DNA of 26,541 bases from a virus, in the IMG/VR virus record IMGVR_UViG_3300036828_000512, positions 1-26,541 of that record; one strand, written 5' to 3'. The position numbers and the translations under genes are program-made. The notes under the pieces were generated by a model, which was given only the letters and a program-made list of their open reading frames with translations, was not told where the DNA came from and searched no databases. Of this stretch, positions 8,847 to 16,853 are shown in pieces. Position 1 is the first letter of the stretch. Every line of letters begins with the position of its first letter.

Positions 8847-8922
8847 TGGTGCCGAGGGACGGAATCGAACCGTCGACACACGGGTTTTCGGCCCGCTGCT
8901 CTACCAGCTGAGCTACCTCGGC
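8847..8922 (-). tRNA. tRNA-Phe (GAA) with C33 and encoded CCA
   Basis: On the minus strand a complete cloverleaf can be folded: acceptor GCCGAGG with CCTCGGC, D arm GCTC/GAGC with GGT loop, anticodon stem GCGGG/CCCGT, variable GTGTC, T arm GACGG-TTCGATT-CCGTC, discriminator A and an encoded CCA. The anticodon loop is CCGAAAA, giving anticodon GAA (Phe). Position 33, U in nearly all elongator tRNAs, is C here. The first ten bases overlap the end of the coiled-coil gene. Either this is a deviant but folded phage tRNA or the C is an assembly error. Confidence 0.9.
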
Positions 8923-9920: not shown

Positions 9921-12122
9921 ATGGCTACTGTCAGCTACAGCCCGCCCGGTGCTCAACTCGCCGCCTTTCTCAAATCCGACCACCGACTGCGCGCCCTGAT
10001 CGGGCCGGTCTATGCCGGCCGCAAATCGGCCGCGGTCTATGACATCGTGCAGCGTGCTGTCCGATATCGGCGGCAGCGCGCCTGGCGCTGGGTGGTCGTG
10101 CGGCTGCGCCGTGACGAGCTCGAAGCCGAGACCGTGCGCGCCGTGCAGTATTGGGTCAGAGACGGTAGCTACGACGCCAAAAAGCGCCGCTGGAGCTACG
10201 TTTATGACCTGGGAGACCAGGTCGAGCGGCTCCTTGAGATTGAGTTCCTGGCGATGGAGGAGGGCGCCGATCGCCGGCGTCTGCCGCACGCCGACTGCTC
10301 GGCGGTCTGGCTCGACGACGCCCGCAATCTCTCCGAAGGGGTGCTCGACGATGCCCGGCTGATCGCCGGCCGCTACCCGGGCGGGCTCGACGGCGGGACG
10401 CAATGGCGCGGGGTGATCGCGACCTCGCGCATGCCATTGCCCGGTCATTGGCTGGTCGATCGCGACGACGTCCAGCTCTACCGCCAGCCCTCGGGGCGCT
10501 CGCCCCAGGCCGAAAATGTCGACAACCTCACAGCGCGCGGGTTCTCCTACGTCAAATTGGCCGAGGACGAGGACCCCGATTGGGTCGCCCGCTATGTCGA
10601 CGCCGAGGTCACCGCCGGCGCCGCCGAGAGCGAGGCCGAGAGCACGCGGCAGGCGGCGCGCGGCTCGCTGACGCAGTTTATTCGGGTCATGATGCCGGAC
10701 ATCGAGCCGGCACTGCATCACCAGTACATCATCAGCAAGCTGGAGCAGGTCGCCAACGGCAAGATCAAGCGCCTGATGCTGTTTTTGCCGCCCGGATCGG
10801 CCAAAAGCACATATGCCAGTGTGCTGTTCCCGCCCTGGTTCATGGGCAATCACCCGTCATTGCCGGTCATTGCCGCCAGTCACTCAAAAGAGCTCGCCGA
10901 GCGGTTTGGCCGGCGGGTGCGCAACCAGGTCGGCTCGCCGCTCTTCAAGGAAATTTTCGGCTTTGGCCTGTCGGGCGATTCGGGGGCGGCCGGGCGCTGG
11001 GAAACCGCCCGCGGGGGCGAGTATTTCGCGGTCGGGGTCGATGCCTCGGTGACCGGCCGGCGCGCTGCGCTGGGCATCATCGACGATCCGGTCAAAGGCC
11101 GCCAGGAGGCCGATTCGGCGACCGTCCGGCAGCATGTGTGGGACTGGTACAAATCGGATTTTTGGACCCGGCTGATTCCCGACGCCGCAATGATCTACAT
11201 TGGCACCCGCTGGCATGACGACGATCTCGCCGGGCGGCTGCTTGAAGAAGCCAAGACCGGCGGCGAGCAATGGGAGGTTGTCAAATTATCGGCCGAGGCC
11301 AAGGAGAACGACCCGCTCGGCCGGGCGCCCGGCGAGCGCCTCTGGGCCGAGTGGTTTTCCGAGGAGCAGATCAGGATCGCCAAGCGCGACGCGCGCAACT
11401 GGTCGGCATTGTGGCAGCAAGAGCCGATGCCGGAATCGGGCGACTATTTCAAGGCCGAGTGGATCAAGTGGTACGACAACCCGCCGCCGCGCCTGCAATT
11501 GCGGACCTATGGCGCCTCGGACTATGCGACCAAGGCGCAGGGCGGCGACTTTACCGTCCACCTGGTGGTCGGGGTCGACCCGCTGTCCGACATCTACCTG
11601 CTCGACCTGTGGCGCGAGCACGCCGCCTCGGACGTGTGGGCTGACGTGTTGCTCGACATGATGGCCCGGTGGAAAACCATCACCTGGGCCGAGGAGATGG
11701 GGCAGATCAAGAATTCGGTCGGCCCGTTCATCACCAAGCGCCAGCTGGAGCGCAAAATCTTTGGCGTGCGGCGCCAGTTCGCGAGCTCGTTTGACAAGGC
11801 GACTCGCGCCCAGGCGATCCGCGGGCGCATGGCGATGGGCAAGGTGTGGTTCCCGCGCGGCGCCCCCTGGGCGATCGATCTGGTGCAGGAGCTATTGCGC
11901 TTCCCGGCTGGAACCCACGACGACCAGGTGGATGGGCTCAGCCTAATAGGCCAGATGATCGACGAGATGATGCCGGGATCAAAACCGGCACCAATACCGC
12001 AGCCGCTCGATGGCGCCACGGTGGTGACCGGGATGCAAATGCCGCTCGACTGGCACTGGAGCCACTCGACAAAAGACGCGGTCCTGCGGCTCGGCAATGG
12101 CAATGGCCCGCGGAGGATCTGA
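9921..12122 (+). CDS. terL: terminase large subunit with extra N-terminal degenerate terminase ATPase
   Basis: DNA-packaging motor and nuclease, 733 aa, far longer than the usual 450-550. Residues 248-680 form a complete terminase: Walker A PPGSAKST (290-297), Walker B GIIDD (385-389), the GTRWHDDDLAGRLL coupling segment (428-441), and a nuclease domain with acidic residues at D534, D543 and HDDQVD (666-671). Residues 1-232 resemble the ATPase of a different podovirus-type terminase: GPVYAGRKSA (28-37) where GPVGSGKS is expected, AVWLDDAR (128-135) for the Walker B NEAR motif, GRYP (150-153), and RQPSGRSPQAEN (188-199). The extra domain has lost a proper P-loop. The next gene overlaps the stop. 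Confidence 0.92.
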   Translation: MATVSYSPPGAQLAAFLKSDHRLRALIGPVYAGRKSAAVYDIVQRAVRYRRQRAWRWVVVRLRRDELEAETVRAVQYWVRDGSYDAKKRRWSYVYDLGDQVERLLEIEFLAMEEGADRRRLPHADCSAVWLDDARNLSEGVLDDARLIAGRYPGGLDGGTQWRGVIATSRMPLPGHWLVDRDDVQLYRQPSGRSPQAENVDNLTARGFSYVKLAEDEDPDWVARYVDAEVTAGAAESEAESTRQAARGSLTQFIRVMMPDIEPALHHQYIISKLEQVANGKIKRLMLFLPPGSAKSTYASVLFPPWFMGNHPSLPVIAASHSKELAERFGRRVRNQVGSPLFKEIFGFGLSGDSGAAGRWETARGGEYFAVGVDASVTGRRAALGIIDDPVKGRQEADSATVRQHVWDWYKSDFWTRLIPDAAMIYIGTRWHDDDLAGRLLEEAKTGGEQWEVVKLSAEAKENDPLGRAPGERLWAEWFSEEQIRIAKRDARNWSALWQQEPMPESGDYFKAEWIKWYDNPPPRLQLRTYGASDYATKAQGGDFTVHLVVGVDPLSDIYLLDLWREHAASDVWADVLLDMMARWKTITWAEEMGQIKNSVGPFITKRQLERKIFGVRRQFASSFDKATRAQAIRGRMAMGKVWFPRGAPWAIDLVQELLRFPAGTHDDQVDGLSLIGQMIDEMMPGSKPAPIPQPLDGATVVTGMQMPLDWHWSHSTKDAVLRLGNGNGPRRI

Positions 12123-12298
12123 TGCCGCTCTCGGTACTGTTCTGGCTGATATTCGTGTTGTGGGTGGTGTTTGGGGTCTGGCTCTATTGGCCGCAAACCC
12201 CGGCCCCGGTCTGGCGACCCTGGGGCAATCAGCTATTGCTGGTGGTCTTGGTGTTTCTGCTCGGGCTGGGGGTGTACGGGTCCATCGTCACCCGCTAG
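12122..12298 (+). CDS. small two-span membrane protein
   Basis: A 58-aa protein with two hydrophobic helices (LFWLIFVLWVVFGVWLYW and LLLVVLVFLLGLGVYGSIV) separated by a short polar loop containing several Pro. The ATG overlaps the terminase TGA. Its size and two spans would suit a holin or a membrane-anchored accessory, but nothing specific shows this. It converges with the minus-strand gene that ends at 12295, and the two stop codons share bases 12296-12297. Confidence 0.7.
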   Translation: MPLSVLFWLIFVLWVVFGVWLYWPQTPAPVWRPWGNQLLLVVLVFLLGLGVYGSIVTR

Positions 12299-12465
12299 GA
12301 GCCGTCGCCGCGGCCGAGACTGTGGGCGAGCAGTAGAACGCCGACGACGAGCCAGATCGCCACCGGGGCCGATATCGCCGGCACTACGAAATGGCTGAGC
12401 AGGGCCAGGGCAAGCATGCCCAGGGCCCCGCACAGCAACCAGAAGAGGGTGGCCGGGTCGTTCAC
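12295..12465 (-). CDS. small membrane protein, last gene of the minus-strand operon
   Basis: A GTG-initiated 56-aa protein with two hydrophobic segments (LFWLLCGALGMLALALLSHF and SAPVAIWLVVGVLLLAHSL). GTG 12465-12463 overlaps the TGA of the gene before it (GTGA), the same coupling seen throughout this operon, which supports it despite its size. Topology resembles the convergent small membrane gene at 12122. Function unknown. It ends head-on against that gene. Confidence 0.6.
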   Translation of the reverse strand: MNDPATLFWLLCGALGMLALALLSHFVVPAISAPVAIWLVVGVLLLAHSLGRGDGS

Positions 12466-12644
12466 ACCGGCGCCGGCGCCCGCGGTGTCGGCTTGCGCTC
12501 CCAGCTCCAGCGGGCGTCGTCGCTCAGCTGGTGCCAGGTCTTGCGCGGGGTGCCGTCGCCATAGCAGGGCTCGCGGGCGAGGTCCTCCTCATAGGCGATT
12601 TGGCCGGGGGTGCGCGCGGCGTAGGGCCAGTCGGGATGAGGCAT
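12462..12644 (-). CDS. small phage protein (60 aa)
   Basis: A 60-aa protein starting MPHPDWPYAARTPGQIAYEE, with an acidic helix followed by KTWHQLSDDARWSWERKP. The pattern (P-G-x-I-A-(Y/F)-E-x-D ... W-x-x-L-x-x-x-x-R-x-x-W) is one I associate with small phage proteins of unknown function. The start is fixed by ATGA overlap with the upstream gene; a longer frame to 12737 lies inside that gene. Confidence 0.65.
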   Translation of the reverse strand: MPHPDWPYAARTPGQIAYEEDLAREPCYGDGTPRKTWHQLSDDARWSWERKPTPRAPAPV

Positions 12645-12850
12645 CAGGCATGCCCCGGCGCAAAGCGCTGGGCCTCCTGGGCAAGCTGGTCGGCTGAATA
12701 GCCGCAGGCCCGCAGGTAGTGGGTCAGATGGACCCACAGCGCGAGGGCGACGCCATCCGGCCAGTCGGCCTCGGTGACCAGCGACATCAGGTCAAAGGCC
12801 TGACGCTCGCTTTGCACCGGGGTGGCGAGCCAATCGAGTATCGCGGTCAT
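12644..12850 (-). CDS. hypothetical small protein (68 aa)
   Basis: A helical 68-aa protein (MTAILDWLATPVQSERQAFD and GVALALWVHLTHYLRACGYS) of unknown function, without a membrane span or metal site. The start ATG at 12850 overlaps the stop of the HNH gene (ATGA), and the stop overlaps the next start. It is part of the CtrA-like operon. Confidence 0.65.
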   Translation of the reverse strand: MTAILDWLATPVQSERQAFDLMSLVTEADWPDGVALALWVHLTHYLRACGYSADQLAQEAQRFAPGHA

Positions 12851-13215
12851 CAGGCGGCCTCCCGCGCTAGGTAGATTTTGACCGGCTCGGCGACGGTGTA
12901 CCGGGTGATGTTGCGGCTGACGCAGTAGGGTGTCTTGAGCCAGTCGCTGAGCGTCTTGGTCCACTTGCTGGTGTTGCAGCCATTGCACGCGAACCCGACG
13001 TTTGCCGGGTCATCTAGCGGGCCGTCATTGTCAAAGTGCTCGACCGTGCGCCATTTCTGAAGGGGGGCCGCCGTGCTTCCCCAATTGACCATCCAGGTGT
13101 GGCAATAGACGCAGAGCCCGTCCCTCTCAAAGATCGTCGGCAGCTGGTCGGGCGGCAGTCCATAACGACGCCACTGCCGCGTTGCCTGGGCGACGGCGAA
13201 ACTGTTGTGAGGCAT
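12850..13215 (-). CDS. HNH endonuclease-like protein
   Basis: A 121-aa protein with the hallmarks of a small HNH nuclease: C35-x2-C38 (LCVYC), a VEHFDND segment with H60 as the likely first catalytic His, then N72 and C77-x2-C80-N (ACNGCN). The two Cys pairs would bind structural zinc. It could be a homing-type nuclease or a phage HNH protein helping packaging; its distance from cos or terminase signals prevents a choice. The start is fixed by ATGA overlap with the regulator gene. Being inside a regulator operon hints that the operon may have been mobile. Confidence 0.75.
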   Translation of the reverse strand: MPHNSFAVAQATRQWRRYGLPPDQLPTIFERDGLCVYCHTWMVNWGSTAAPLQKWRTVEHFDNDGPLDDPANVGFACNGCNTSKWTKTLSDWLKTPYCVSRNITRYTVAEPVKIYLAREAA

Positions 13216-13916
13216 CAGGCGGCCCTCGCTAAGACCGGGGCGGCGGCGCGCTCGCGGATAATGTAGCCGCGGCCCCAGGTGGTCTCGATCAAGCCGGCGG
13301 CGGCCGGGCAGACCTCGGCGAGTTTCTTGCGCAATTTGCAGATGTACACGTCGATGATCTTGTGATCCGGCTCGCGTTGCTCGGATTGGTAAATCTGCGC
13401 CAAAATCTGCTCTTTGGTGACGGTGCGATTTACCCGGATCACCAAGTATTCGAGCAAGGCGAATTCCCGGCCGCTCAGATGCACCGGCTGGCCGCCGACC
13501 GTGGCGCTGCGATCGTCCTGGTCGAGGCGCAGCGGGCCGGTGGTCAACACCTTGCCGGGATGCCCGGCACTGCGCCGGACGATCGCCTTGGCGCGGGCGA
13601 GGAGCTCGCGGCCGAGGAATGGCCGACACAGCACGTCGTCGGCCCCTTGTTCGAGAAAATGCAACCGGGTGCGGGCTGACCTGCTGTCCGGGCACGACAC
13701 CAGGACGATGATCGGGACATGGACCCGGGCGGTGCGCAGCCGCTGCGTGGTGTCGGGCTCGCTGTTGGCGTTGAGGATCAGCGCGTCATAGTCGAGGCCG
13801 CCGCGTTCGAGATCCTCGGCGCTGTCGATCGCGTCGCAGACCGCGTGCTCCTCGACAAACAAGGCCTGCAGGCGGCCGGCGCGCTCGGCGTCGGGCTCGA
13901 CGATCAAGATCCTCAT
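13215..13916 (-). CDS. CtrA-like response regulator with pseudo-receiver domain
   Basis: A 233-aa OmpR/CtrA-family transcription factor. The receiver (residues 1-118) keeps the fold (MRILIVEPD, GADDVLCRPF) but has Asn49 (ALILNAN) where CtrA has the phosphorylated Asp51, and Arg98 replaces the conserved Lys. The DNA-binding domain (130-222) is strongly CtrA-like: VHLSGREFALLEYL, then DHKIIDVYICKLRKKL and ETTWGRGYIIRE. In Caulobacter and relatives CtrA controls cell division, motility and replication. Here it likely binds CtrA-type sites without needing phosphorylation. The ATG overlaps the lipoprotein stop. Family identity is firm; loss of phosphorylation is inferred from alignment by eye. Confidence 0.9.
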   Translation of the reverse strand: MRILIVEPDAERAGRLQALFVEEHAVCDAIDSAEDLERGGLDYDALILNANSEPDTTQRLRTARVHVPIIVLVSCPDSRSARTRLHFLEQGADDVLCRPFLGRELLARAKAIVRRSAGHPGKVLTTGPLRLDQDDRSATVGGQPVHLSGREFALLEYLVIRVNRTVTKEQILAQIYQSEQREPDHKIIDVYICKLRKKLAEVCPAAAGLIETTWGRGYIIRERAAAPVLARAA

Positions 13917-14215
13917 TGCTGCACCACCTGCTCGGGGGCGTAGCCGAGGGCGGCCATGCACTCGTTGTAGATCCCCTGCTGCGCGTTGTGGGTATTGGAG
14001 GCGCGCACCGCCGAGGCGATGACGACAAAGGCCAGACCGCCCATCGCAAAGCCGCCGCCGGGCTCGGTGGCGCGGGCGGTTTGCTTGCACTCGAAGCTGT
14101 CGCGGGCGAATTCGGTCGGGACGGCGCCGGGTTTGGTCCAGCTGTAGCCGGGGGCTGGGGCGACGCAGCCCGACAGTAGGGTCAGCGTGACGCCGGCGGC
14201 GATTAGGGTACGCAT
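13913..14215 (-). CDS. lipoprotein, first gene of the CtrA-like operon
   Basis: A 100-aa protein with a type II signal peptide: MRTLIAAGVTLTLLSGC, lipobox LSGC with Cys17. The mature part contains one further hydrophobic Gly-rich stretch (GGGFAMGGLAFVVIASAV) and a short C-terminal domain with a Cys (YNECMAALGY). It probably sits in the outer or inner membrane facing the periplasm; superinfection exclusion or lysis functions are possible but unsupported. A good GAGGAG lies upstream. It heads the operon downstream of a long structured leader. Confidence 0.75.
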   Translation of the reverse strand: MRTLIAAGVTLTLLSGCVAPAPGYSWTKPGAVPTEFARDSFECKQTARATEPGGGFAMGGLAFVVIASAVRASNTHNAQQGIYNECMAALGYAPEQVVQQ

Positions 14216-14417
14216 TGGGTGTATGCTCCTCGGGGTTTGGTCTGCGGTTGAGCTCAGACCGACCGGCGTCGCTCCCCGCTGCATTGATGGGCCTGGGGAC
14301 GGGCTCAAACCGTCGCCAGTGACAGGCCGAAGGGGACAATCTCGGGGACCCCGGTCACTCGGGGCGAATTCCCCGAGCCCTCGCGAGTGTCCGCGGGGGA
14401 GCGGCGTCAATCCGTCA
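14216..14417 (-). promoter_or_regulatory. long structured leader of the lipoprotein/CtrA-like operon
   Basis: About 200 nt separate the presumed transcription start (near 14417) from the lipoprotein ATG. Two stem-loops stand out: CTCGGGG-N6-CCCCGAG at 14358-14377, and a nested pair with GGCCTG/CAGGCC (14290-14295 with 14323-14328) enclosing GACGG/CCGTC (14298-14314). No open frame of coding character is seen, so regulation at RNA level is possible. Confidence 0.4.
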
Positions 14418-14423
14418 CCCGGT

Positions 14424-14452
14424 TATATACGGTTTTAACCGTGTGCTTGCAA
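14424..14452 (-). promoter_or_regulatory. sigma70-type promoter with internal operator (lipoprotein/CtrA-like operon)
   Basis: On the minus strand TTGCAA (14452-14447) and TATATA (14429-14424) are separated by 17 bp. The spacer contains the inverted repeat CGGTT-AA-AACCG (14441-14430) abutting the -10 hexamer. The neighbouring operon's promoter has a near-identical element at the same place. Confidence 0.7.
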
Positions 14453-14454
14453 GA

Positions 14455-14544
14455 CTAAATTAAGCCTAGCGTCCACAGCTGCGCGACGACGACGCCGAGC
14501 ACCAAGGCGGCGGCGATCACCCAGGCCAGCAGCCGGCGGTTCAT
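14455..14544 (-). CDS. 29-aa single-span membrane peptide
   Basis: MNRRLLAWVIAAALVLGVVV and nine more residues: one transmembrane helix with a positive N-terminus. The ATG overlaps the TGA of the SciP-like gene (ATGA), so it is probably translated by coupling. A longer frame to 14658 is a shadow of the SciP gene. Its TAG lies only a few bases upstream of the next operon's -35 box. The function is unknown; small single-span peptides often modulate membrane proteins. Confidence 0.5.
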   Translation of the reverse strand: MNRRLLAWVIAAALVLGVVVAQLWTLGLI

Positions 14545-14813
14545 TCGCTCGGCGGCCGGCGCGGGCGGCCGCGGCGGCGCTCCTTGAAGGGCTGCGGGGC
14601 CGGCTTGCGGGTCACCCGCAAACCGGGGACGCCGCGCAGCTTGAAGGCGGCCAGCCATTGGGCGAGCTCGTCCTCGCTGAGCTCATAGCGGCGGCAGGCC
14701 TCCGCGGTGGTGATCACGCCGGCGGTCACCGCCAAGAGCACCGCGGCCTTGAGGGGCGGTGTCCAGCGCCTGATCGGCGGCCGCGGCGGTTGTGGTGGGT
14801 CCTCGGGGGTCAT
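14541..14813 (-). CDS. SciP-like CtrA inhibitor (DUF1153)
   Basis: A 90-aa protein whose core (residues 14-70) matches DUF1153/SciP: RRWTPPLKAAVLLAVTAG, then EACRRYELSEDELAQWLAAF and GVPGLRVTRK. Host SciP reads RRW-x4-KAEVVAAV...L..EEACERY.L..EEF..W...GL.GLR.TR. In Caulobacter, SciP binds CtrA at promoters and blocks CtrA-activated transcription in G1. The C-terminus here is a basic Arg/Lys tail not usual in the host protein. ATG overlaps the RHH stop (ATGA). Together with the CtrA-like gene downstream it forms a phage copy of the CtrA/SciP pair. The family assignment rests on motif recall. Confidence 0.85.
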   Translation of the reverse strand: MTPEDPPQPPRPPIRRWTPPLKAAVLLAVTAGVITTAEACRRYELSEDELAQWLAAFKLRGVPGLRVTRKPAPQPFKERRRGRPRRPPSE

Positions 14814-15016
14814 TCCTTGCGCCGCCGGCCGGCCGGGCGGTATTCGCGATGACCGACGGCGGCTTGTAACCCGAGATTGAGCAGGTGCAACAGCGCGGCG
14901 AGTCGATCGGGCGGTCCCGGCTGGGTCTGCCGCCAGGCTTCCAGGCGCGCCAAAAACTCGTCGGGGACCTGCATCTCGATGCGGGTGCGGGGGCCGTACT
15001 GGCGGGGGCGGGGCAT
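14810..15016 (-). CDS. ribbon-helix-helix repressor-like protein
   Basis: A 68-aa protein with the Arc/CopG pattern: a beta strand RIEMQVP (12-18), helix FLARLEAWRQ, turn with PGPPDR and second helix LAALLHLLNLGLQA, then a basic tail. Such proteins bind as dimers to short inverted repeats through the strand. It is the first gene of the minus-strand SciP-like operon, and the promoter just upstream carries an operator in its spacer, so autoregulation is likely. The start ATG at 15016 leaves only about 4 nt after the expected transcription start, which points to a leaderless mRNA. Confidence 0.7.
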   Translation of the reverse strand: MPRPRQYGPRTRIEMQVPDEFLARLEAWRQTQPGPPDRLAALLHLLNLGLQAAVGHREYRPAGRRRKE

Positions 15017-15026
15017 ATCGCCCGGT

Positions 15027-15054
15027 AATCTACGGATTAAACCGGGCTAGTCAA
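15027..15054 (-). promoter_or_regulatory. promoter with internal operator (RHH/SciP-like operon)
   Basis: On the minus strand TTGACT (15054-15049), a 16-bp spacer and TAGATT (15032-15027). The spacer holds CGGTT-TA-ATCCG (15044-15033), directly adjacent to the -10 box. It differs by two bases from the operator in the promoter at 14424-14452. Confidence 0.65.
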
Positions 15055-15068
15055 ATCGCTAACCAACA

Positions 15069-15088
15069 AAGGGACGGAGTCCGCCCTT
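15069..15088 (+). promoter_or_regulatory. hairpin over the portal ribosome-binding site
   Basis: AAGG-g-a-CGGA-g-TCCG-c-CCTT forms an imperfect palindrome covering GGAG (15076-15079) and the TTG start of the portal gene at 15087. Folding could limit translation. Confidence 0.4.
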
Positions 15089-16853
15089 GGCCGACCTCGC
15101 GACTTTCAATGCCTCGGCTTCGATCGAAGAGCGCGAGGATTTGGGGACCGGGCCGGAGGCGGTCTGGCTGTTTTGGGACACCCAGCTCGGGCTCGCCGAG
15201 AAGGAGGACAAGGATTGGATCGAGCGCGGCCGCAAGATCGTCGACCGCTACCGCGACGAGCGCGACGCCAACGAGCAACGCACTGCAAAATATAACATTT
15301 TATGGTCGAACGTTGAGGTCCTCAAGCCGGTGCTCTACGGGCGGACGCCAAAACCGGACGTCTCGCGCCGCCACAAGGACACCGCCGACCCGGCCGCCAA
15401 TCTCGGCGCCGACATCCTCGAACGGTCGCTGACCTGGGAGGACGACATCGAGGAGCTCGACACGGTGCTGCAGGCCGTCGTCGAGGACCGGCTGTTGCCC
15501 GGCCGCGGGACGGCGCGGGTGTTCTACGAGTACGAGCTCGGCGAATCGGAGGAGGACGAGGAGGGCGAGCCCGACGAGGAGGGCAACCCGGCGACCTTTC
15601 AGCCGGTGGTCGCCGAACGGGCGCCGGTGCGCTACGTGTTTTGGGAAGACTATCGCGAGACGCCGGCAAGAACTGAGACTGAGATCTGGTGGAAGGCCTA
15701 TCGCAGTTACTTGACCCGCAATGAACTCGTTGATCGCTTTGGATCCGAGAAGGGCAAGAAATGCGAGCTCGATTACACGCCGACCGGGGTCGACACCGAC
15801 AACACCAAGCAGGGACCGCTCGCCGATAACTTCAAAAAGGCGACGGTGTGGGAGATTTGGGACAAGAAGGAAAAAAAGGCCGTCTGGCATGCCAAGGGCT
15901 ACAGCGACGGGCCGCTCGACGAGAAATCCGACCCGCTCGAACTGCCCGGCTTTTTCCCGTCGCCGCCGTGTCTGAGATCGACCACGACCAACGAGCAGCG
16001 CGTCCCGGTGGCCGATTATGTCGAGTATCAAGACCAGGCGATGGAGCTCGACACGCTGACGAGCCGCATCGAAAAACTGACCCGGGCACTCAAGGTCGCC
16101 GGCGTCTATGCCGGGTCGGAAAAGGCGGTCCTCCAGCAGCTGGTCGATGATTCGAGCGACAACAAATTGATCCCGGTCGAGGATTGGGCCGGGTTCGCCG
16201 GCGACAAGGGCGGGCTCAACGGGCTGATCCAGTGGCTGCCGGTCGAGCAGATCGCTCGCGTATTGATCCAGCTCTACGACGCCCGCGAGCGCCTATTGCG
16301 GATCATCTACCAGACCACCGGAATCGCCGACATTCTGCGCGGCGAGACCAACCCGACCGAGACCCTCGGCGCCCAGCAGCTGAAAACGCAGTTCGCGACG
16401 CGCCGCATCACCAAGGCGCAAAAGGACGTGGCGCGCTTTGCCCGCGATCTGTTGCGGCTGCGCGGTGCGGTCATGGCGCGGCATTTCTCGCCCTCGACCT
16501 TGGCGCTGATGTCGGGTTTGCCCGAGCCGATGCCGGCGTTGCCGCCGCCGCCACCGATGCTGGTGCCGGCACCGGCCTCGCCGATCCCCGGCGGCCCGGT
16601 CGGGGCGCAGGCGGCGATCGGGGCGATGGGGGGAGCTGCTGGGGGAGGACCACCGGCGCCGGCGGCGGGGGGTGGGCCGCCGGCGCCGCCTATGCCAGGC
16701 GGGCCCGCAGGCGTACCGCCACGACCCCCCGGCGGCCCTGGGCCCCCGGCGGCCGCCGGCGTTTCCCCGGTACCTGGAGCCCGCCTGGCACCCGATGGGC
16801 GGCACTACGTGCCCGACCCCAGGCGCCCAGGCAAATACCTGATGGTCGCCTAG
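15087..16853 (+). CDS. phage portal protein, N-terminal and central part
   Basis: A 588-aa portal protein of podovirus type, forming the ring through which DNA is packaged. Typical features: KYNILWSNVEVLKPVLYGRT near residue 70, the TLTSRIEKLTRALKVAGVYA segment, the LYDARERLLRIIYQTTGIAD and DILRGETNPTETLGAQQLK motifs near 400-430, and HFSPSTLALMSGLPEPMPAL near 466. After residue 485 it becomes a 100-aa Pro/Gly/Ala-rich tail. The C-terminal IDIE-x-DST domain usual in this group is absent and is found in the gene at 20316. It uses a TTG start with GGAG inside a hairpin. It begins the structural module. Confidence 0.85.
   Translation: MADLATFNASASIEEREDLGTGPEAVWLFWDTQLGLAEKEDKDWIERGRKIVDRYRDERDANEQRTAKYNILWSNVEVLKPVLYGRTPKPDVSRRHKDTADPAANLGADILERSLTWEDDIEELDTVLQAVVEDRLLPGRGTARVFYEYELGESEEDEEGEPDEEGNPATFQPVVAERAPVRYVFWEDYRETPARTETEIWWKAYRSYLTRNELVDRFGSEKGKKCELDYTPTGVDTDNTKQGPLADNFKKATVWEIWDKKEKKAVWHAKGYSDGPLDEKSDPLELPGFFPSPPCLRSTTTNEQRVPVADYVEYQDQAMELDTLTSRIEKLTRALKVAGVYAGSEKAVLQQLVDDSSDNKLIPVEDWAGFAGDKGGLNGLIQWLPVEQIARVLIQLYDARERLLRIIYQTTGIADILRGETNPTETLGAQQLKTQFATRRITKAQKDVARFARDLLRLRGAVMARHFSPSTLALMSGLPEPMPALPPPPPMLVPAPASPIPGGPVGAQAAIGAMGGAAGGGPPAPAAGGGPPAPPMPGGPAGVPPRPPGGPGPPAAAGVSPVPGARLAPDGRHYVPDPRRPGKYLMVA

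Follow-up and report, generated by a model that had tools for sequence, protein, structure and literature searches.

A phage regulatory island combining CtrA-like and SciP-like genes with a new structured RNA and twin putative operators

Background

CtrA is an OmpR/PhoB-type regulator, phosphorylated by CckA/ChpT, that serves as the cell-cycle switch and master regulator of alphaproteobacteria. Genes for a CtrA-like and a SciP-like protein lie together in a minus-strand regulatory island of the IMG/VR virus record IMGVR_UViG_3300036828_000512, and this island is described here; the window is the whole of that virus contig record, a soil phage fragment of 26,541 bases. In Caulobacter, SciP binds CtrA and stops the recruitment of RNA polymerase, the binding of CtrA to DNA being undisturbed (PMC6169604). 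Published sciP alleles that relieve SciP action in Caulobacter fall at positions T24 and T65, and mutation of CtrA T170 acts like loss of SciP repression (PMC4241560).

Phages have been connected with these regulators before. In lytic deferment host CtrA regulates phage promoters via CtrA boxes (PMC9437464), infection by phage Jorvik needs host CtrA (PMC10589892), and phiCbK-like phages carry GcrA homologues, a precedent for phage-borne host cell-cycle regulators (PMC3556154). Phage CtrA-like proteins have already been clustered as phrog_731, a family for which no function is given. No DUF1153 in phages, no phage SciP or CtrA-SciP pair and no RNA leader on such a pair was found in the open-access papers searched.

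The window shares with the phiCbK-like phages a phage-borne homologue of an alphaproteobacterial cell-cycle regulator; the regulator is, however, a different one, and no inhibitor partner, RNA or twin operator is described for those phages. It shares with lytic deferment a link between phage and CtrA, but there the phage has the boxes and uses host CtrA, whereas here the phage has the protein and no boxes. A first-pass annotation of the window had proposed that a CtrA/SciP pair redirects the host cell-cycle switch or uses it to time phage expression. Between the two genes the island also contains a structured RNA and twin promoter/operators, which are additional to that annotation.

Results and discussion

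The CtrA-like protein

At the family level the identity of the CtrA-like protein, as first annotated, holds. Its top NCBIfam model is CtrA (NF045991, 181.5 bits; runner-up 97.6), below the equivalog cut-off of 350, and the profile search does not place it outside the CtrA clade. The Pfam Trans_reg_C domain is matched with E 1e-20, the receiver domain reaches 18 bits, below the Pfam cut-off of 30.2, and phrog_731 is matched over the whole length (E 1e-32). In a tree of DNA-binding domains the window protein, 13 phage proteins and six host CtrAs form one side (support 97/96), the other side comprising 16 other response regulators of the OmpR family from the same genomes; the placement uses this domain, full-length CtrA trees being unresolved through long branches. 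The recognition helix KIIDVYICKLRKKL is almost identical to KIIDVFICKLRKKL of host CtrA, and the WGRGY motif, T170 and the C-terminal AA of CtrA are all present. The protein ends in ...LARAA, where a ClpXP degron would lie. The AlphaFold model (pLDDT 90) has an OmpR-type two-domain fold, with receiver and winged helix as read from secondary structure.

Unlike host CtrA, to which overall identity is 40-42%, the protein carries in the alignment N at Asp51, P at position 8 (the first of the acidic pair) and R at Lys101. Because of these changes it is predicted to be unable to act as a normal CckA/ChpT-phosphorylated CtrA. G010 and G013, both related phages, encode a CtrA-like protein reduced to its DNA-binding domain (112 aa); the RNA leader is followed there by a ribosome-binding site and, immediately after it, the ATG.

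Loss of Asp51 is repeated among phage CtrAs, with Glu in L102, L103, L106 and L109 and Asn in L101, L107 and the window; it is kept in 6 of 6 host CtrAs. D51E is the laboratory phosphomimetic change. L102, which has D51E, exceeds the CtrA equivalog cut-off (355.9 bits).

The SciP-like protein

DUF1153 (PF06627) is matched by the SciP-like protein with 61.2 bits against a Pfam cut-off of 23.5, and the best NCBIfam model is CtrAInhibSciP (NF051866, 63.8 bits; equivalog cut-off 100, not reached). The profile search thus puts the protein inside DUF1153, and the SciP/DUF1153-like label of the first pass is borne out at family level. The likeness lies in the central helix-turn-helix core, residues 10-69. 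Solved relatives found by sequence are only the DUF1153 entries 2jrt and 2oa4, and the same two head the PDB matches of a structure search with the predicted model (pLDDT 71), weakly, with E 0.07 and 0.2. A transposase-type helix-turn-helix was considered and rejected, such profiles scoring far lower (26 vs 61 bits).

The proteins of the window and G020 end in RGRPRR, which is gained relative to host SciP and which we read as a possible AT-hook-like motif.

A new structured RNA

Downstream of the second promoter lies a conserved stretch of about 165 nt that the window shares with G010, G013, G020, L006 and L208; G019 has a distant copy. It belongs to a new RNA family that is well supported by covariation. 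Among seven distinct sequences 93.1% of cells are paired and 13 pairs are changed on both sides, and the covariation score is 0.316 vs 0.112 in shuffles, none of 500 being as high; the alignment was fitted to the model, and these counts lean towards it. In an independent MAFFT alignment of six RNAs, 9 pairs are changed on both sides, and on 4 of 5 measures the alignment is equalled by 0 to 3 of 500 shuffles. Shared ancestry can lift even unstructured sequences above such shuffles; the weight is therefore put on the several independent pair types and on a control in which partners were slid by one base, where pairing is 54-60%. Covariation is the basis of the claim, since folding a single sequence gives nothing exceptional (z -1.5). 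A coding explanation was rejected: frames are broken between homologues by single-base indels and stops, and base pairs covary.

In L006 (5005-5170, minus strand) and L208 (11560-11724, plus strand) the RNA follows an orf16854 homologue, and neither ctrA nor sciP is nearby; the RNA is therefore a gene of its own that serves here as ctrA leader. In L198 a distant homologue (10222-10332, minus strand; 49.7 bits) lies just before another small lipoprotein gene, and that phage also carries rhh and ctrA-like genes elsewhere. Rfam 15 gives no match above chance in 14150-14560 of the window. A match to the motif in L209 was set aside as chance, falling within unrelated genes. A search with the RNA model of 397 genomes from the order of the Xanthobacteraceae metagenome-assembled genome (MAG) mentioned below gave no match, a negative of little weight.

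Twin promoters and operators

Both window promoters contain the same palindrome, which overlaps spacer and -10. The two operator copies agree at 20 of 24 positions; this pattern was built from the two sites themselves, so a zero expectation for it is circular. When the two upstream regions are compared, their best 26-mer match is 21/26, the maximum in 200 simulations being 19. The layout of the rhh promoter recurs before the rhh homologues of G010, G013, G020 and G014, and that of the RNA promoter recurs upstream of the RNA in G010, G013 and G020. A palindrome of the type TACGG-N6/8-CCGTA stands at the same place in both promoters of G010, G013 and G020, as well as in the rhh promoter of G014; L006 and L208 have the same RNA-promoter layout with a different palindrome, TGGCCA (repeats). 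The twin palindrome is kept in G020 even though no ctrA gene was found there.

The protein first annotated as a ribbon-helix-helix (RHH) repressor is RHH-like, with six aligned homologues from related phages, and has a weak PHROG repressor match (E 0.05). It has no Pfam match, and the label rests on the alignment with those homologues. The RHH product is the likely binder of the palindromes, because rhh is the gene that is always present.

A TTAATTT element (about 14458-14464) lies just upstream of the RNA promoter. It is kept in the window, L015 and L018, the three phages in which ctrA follows the RNA; L025 lacks it.

Relatives carrying island genes

Relatives of the window were collected from IMG/VR by portal protein. 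DUF1153 is found among them in G010, G013, G017 and G020, and OmpR-type domains in G010, G013, G019 and, more weakly, G024. Annotated phage genomes yield one SciP-like match, in Erythrobacter phage XM05, over 49 residues. A serine recombinase lies directly upstream of rhh-sciP in L025 (5181-5852, minus strand), with similar ones in G012, G014, G016 and G019. In several host genomes sciP and ctrA sit close together on one strand; in a Rhizobium (G034:C2:15233-17643), where they are 1.5 kb apart, and a Rhodomicrobium (G036:C10:80941-85824), where they are 4 kb apart, their order is that of the window.

Possible function of the island

Exact TTAA-N7-TTAA boxes number 0 in about 314 kb across seven phage genomes, and one-mismatch sites occur at chance level in the same genomes. 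The suggestion that CtrA times phage genes is thus unlikely. The lack of CtrA boxes in the phage genomes, combined with the CtrA-like recognition helix, means that a CtrA mimic would most likely act on host CtrA boxes; a target of CtrA type, if there is one, probably belongs to the host, and redirection of the host switch is the favoured reading of the two first proposed.

Our preferred explanation, held tentatively and at rather less than even confidence, is a self-regulated, RHH-controlled phage module that makes phosphorylation-independent mimics of CtrA and SciP, with a function that would be directed at the host. In such a module the RHH protein would bind both palindromes and keep both operons off together. 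On release, a CtrA-type DNA-binding protein would be made that could not be phosphorylated and would be uncoupled from host CckA-ChpT, along with a SciP-type partner. The CtrA mimic would then most likely sit on host CtrA boxes and, with SciP, hold the host CtrA regulon silent, while the RNA leader would probably add post-transcriptional control of ctrA. The way SciP works in Caulobacter, keeping polymerase away while CtrA stays on its DNA (PMC6169604), suggests that the phage pair could function jointly as a single repressor. The fullest form of the proposal, in which the RHH repressor and the new RNA jointly govern a remodelled SciP and a CtrA mimic that needs no phosphorylation, and these two proteins together fix the cell-cycle regulon of the host in a single state while the phage infects or is lysogenic, is unlikely as it stands.

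Several observations weigh against a joint host-directed role, the strongest being that SciP lacks its N-terminus and that the pair is rare. In the alignment the window SciP is without the host N-terminal KYVIGPDGSPLTIADLPP segment (the T24 region), and our own alignment shows S at the T65-equivalent position. The segment is also missing from the other aligned phage SciPs, the sole exception being the copy in G042, a host-like sequence at a contig end that was not accepted as a phage gene and was left out of the phage count. Host SciPs form a clade that excludes the phage SciPs (support 99/99), which gives no support to a recent capture as a pair. CtrA-like and SciP-like proteins occur together only in the window, G010 and G013; in G019 the CtrA-like protein has no SciP beside it in the genome, and the fragments G020 and G017 encode SciP but no CtrA. 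DUF1153 exceeds the cut-off in 0 of 31 further IMG/VR records chosen for CtrA-like genes, and four further records chosen for SciP have no OmpR-type domain, which contradicts an obligate partnership; the pairing with SciP, not seen in other phage records tested, is also what separates the window protein from phrog_731. Gene order is sciP then ctrA in the window and ctrA then sciP in G010/G013. Both RHH binding of the palindromes and a host target are putative. The earlier description of the pair as CtrA and its direct inhibitor accordingly survives in part: both family relations stand, whereas the receiver is D51N, the T24 segment is absent and direct inhibition of CtrA is putative.

The island could instead be an internal phage switch, in which the RHH, CtrA-like and SciP-like proteins, recruited from host families, regulate phage genes (early/late or lysis/lysogeny) at phage-specific sites and do not act on the host cell cycle. 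This is possible but doubtful. Transcription of the island against the morphogenesis genes resembles many phage repressor regions, the twin palindrome is an obvious phage operator, and both proteins are strongly diverged and below the NCBIfam equivalog cut-offs; serine recombinases in several related phages, beside rhh-sciP in G020, would fit a temperate life. Yet a recognition helix near-identical to that of host CtrA would be unusual conservation if the sites had changed, and the survival of the twin palindrome in G020, where no ctrA gene was found, makes RHH a likelier binder than CtrA.

Separate insertion of the CtrA-like and SciP-like genes as loosely assembled morons, at a permissive spot between terL and portal and with no joint function, would agree with the rarity of their co-occurrence and with the island being an insertion (see below). 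It is nevertheless quite improbable, as the window, G010, G013 and G020 all combine rhh and the RNA with sciP or ctrA, at places that differ from genome to genome, and their two promoters carry operators that match. Least credible, and very improbable, is that a working CtrA and its direct inhibitor SciP were captured together from a host chromosome and act as in the host. The proximity and order of sciP and ctrA in Rhizobium and Rhodomicrobium and the conservation of CtrA T170 are what such a capture would predict, but the phosphorylation site and the SciP N-terminus are lost, neither protein reaches its equivalog cut-off, the order is reversed in G010/G013 and the phage SciPs fall outside the host clade.

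Genomic setting

The island is bracketed by terL (9921-12122, plus strand) and portal (15087-16853, plus strand), and all its genes are on the minus strand (Table 1). With terminase and portal genes on both flanks of a 26.5-kb IMG/VR virus contig, the CtrA-like and SciP-like genes are phage genes, not part of a host flank. Both open reading frames (ORFs) named in the first pass lie where it put them, with the RHH-like ORF just upstream. Starts and stops overlap at 14813/14810, 13916/13913, 13215/13215, 12850/12850 and 12644/12644, which supports the two adjacent minus-strand operons it had described; operon 1 holds rhh and sciP, and operon 2, downstream of it, runs from the structured RNA through the lipoprotein, ctrA-like and HNH genes to the small ORFs. 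In several close relatives (L007, L009, L011, L013 and L014) terL and portal are separated by tens of bases only, without an island, and the window island is therefore an insertion between them. A tRNA-Phe gene (GAA) lies upstream of terL at 8847-8922, minus strand. In a host search via the portal protein the best result is a 52% match on a Xanthobacteraceae MAG contig, with weaker relatives across many phyla.

Table 1. Features of the island, in window coordinates
Feature	Position	Strand	Basis
Promoter of rhh-sciP operon, TTGACT, 16-nt spacer, TAGATT	15027..15054	-	Sole sigma-70 scan match in 12000-15200
Putative operator copy 1, CCCGGTAATCTACGGATTAAACCG, overlaps spacer and -10	15021..15044	+	Likeness to operator copy 2
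RHH-like putative repressor, 68 aa, first gene of operon 1	14810..15016	-	Alignment with six related-phage homologues
SciP-like DUF1153 protein, 90 aa, C-terminal basic tail RRRGRPRR	14541..14813	-	Profiles; start overlaps rhh stop by 4 nt
Putative 29-aa hydrophobic peptide ORF (MNRRLLAW...), overlaps sciP stop	14455..14544	-	Sequence reading only
Promoter of RNA-ctrA operon, TTGCAA, 17-nt spacer, TATATA	14424..14452	-	Sequence; layout repeated in related phages
Putative operator copy 2, CCCGGTTATATACGGTTTTAACCG, between -35 and -10	14418..14441	+	Likeness to operator copy 1
Structured RNA, leader of lipoprotein-ctrA operon; closing helix and three hairpin arms	14256..14422	-	Model R1, 178 bits; covariation
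Small lipoprotein, lipobox LLSGC, translationally coupled to ctrA-like gene	13913..14215	-	ORF reading; no family match
CtrA-like regulator, 233 aa, degenerate receiver (D51N), CtrA-type DNA-binding domain KIIDVYICKLRKKL	13215..13916	-	Profiles, tree, alignment, model
HNH-endonuclease-like protein, 121 aa, overlaps ctrA stop	12850..13215	-	PHROG HNH families, best E 6e-6
Small ORF, 68 aa	12644..12850	-	No family match
Small ORF, 60 aa	12462..12644	-	No family match
Small membrane-protein-like ORF, 56 aa	12295..12465	-	Sequence reading

Conclusions

The island suggests that a control circuit of the host has been remodelled by a phage to serve its own ends. If phage CtrA proteins lose the phosphorylation site time and again, this would show that phages release the master regulator from its kinase.

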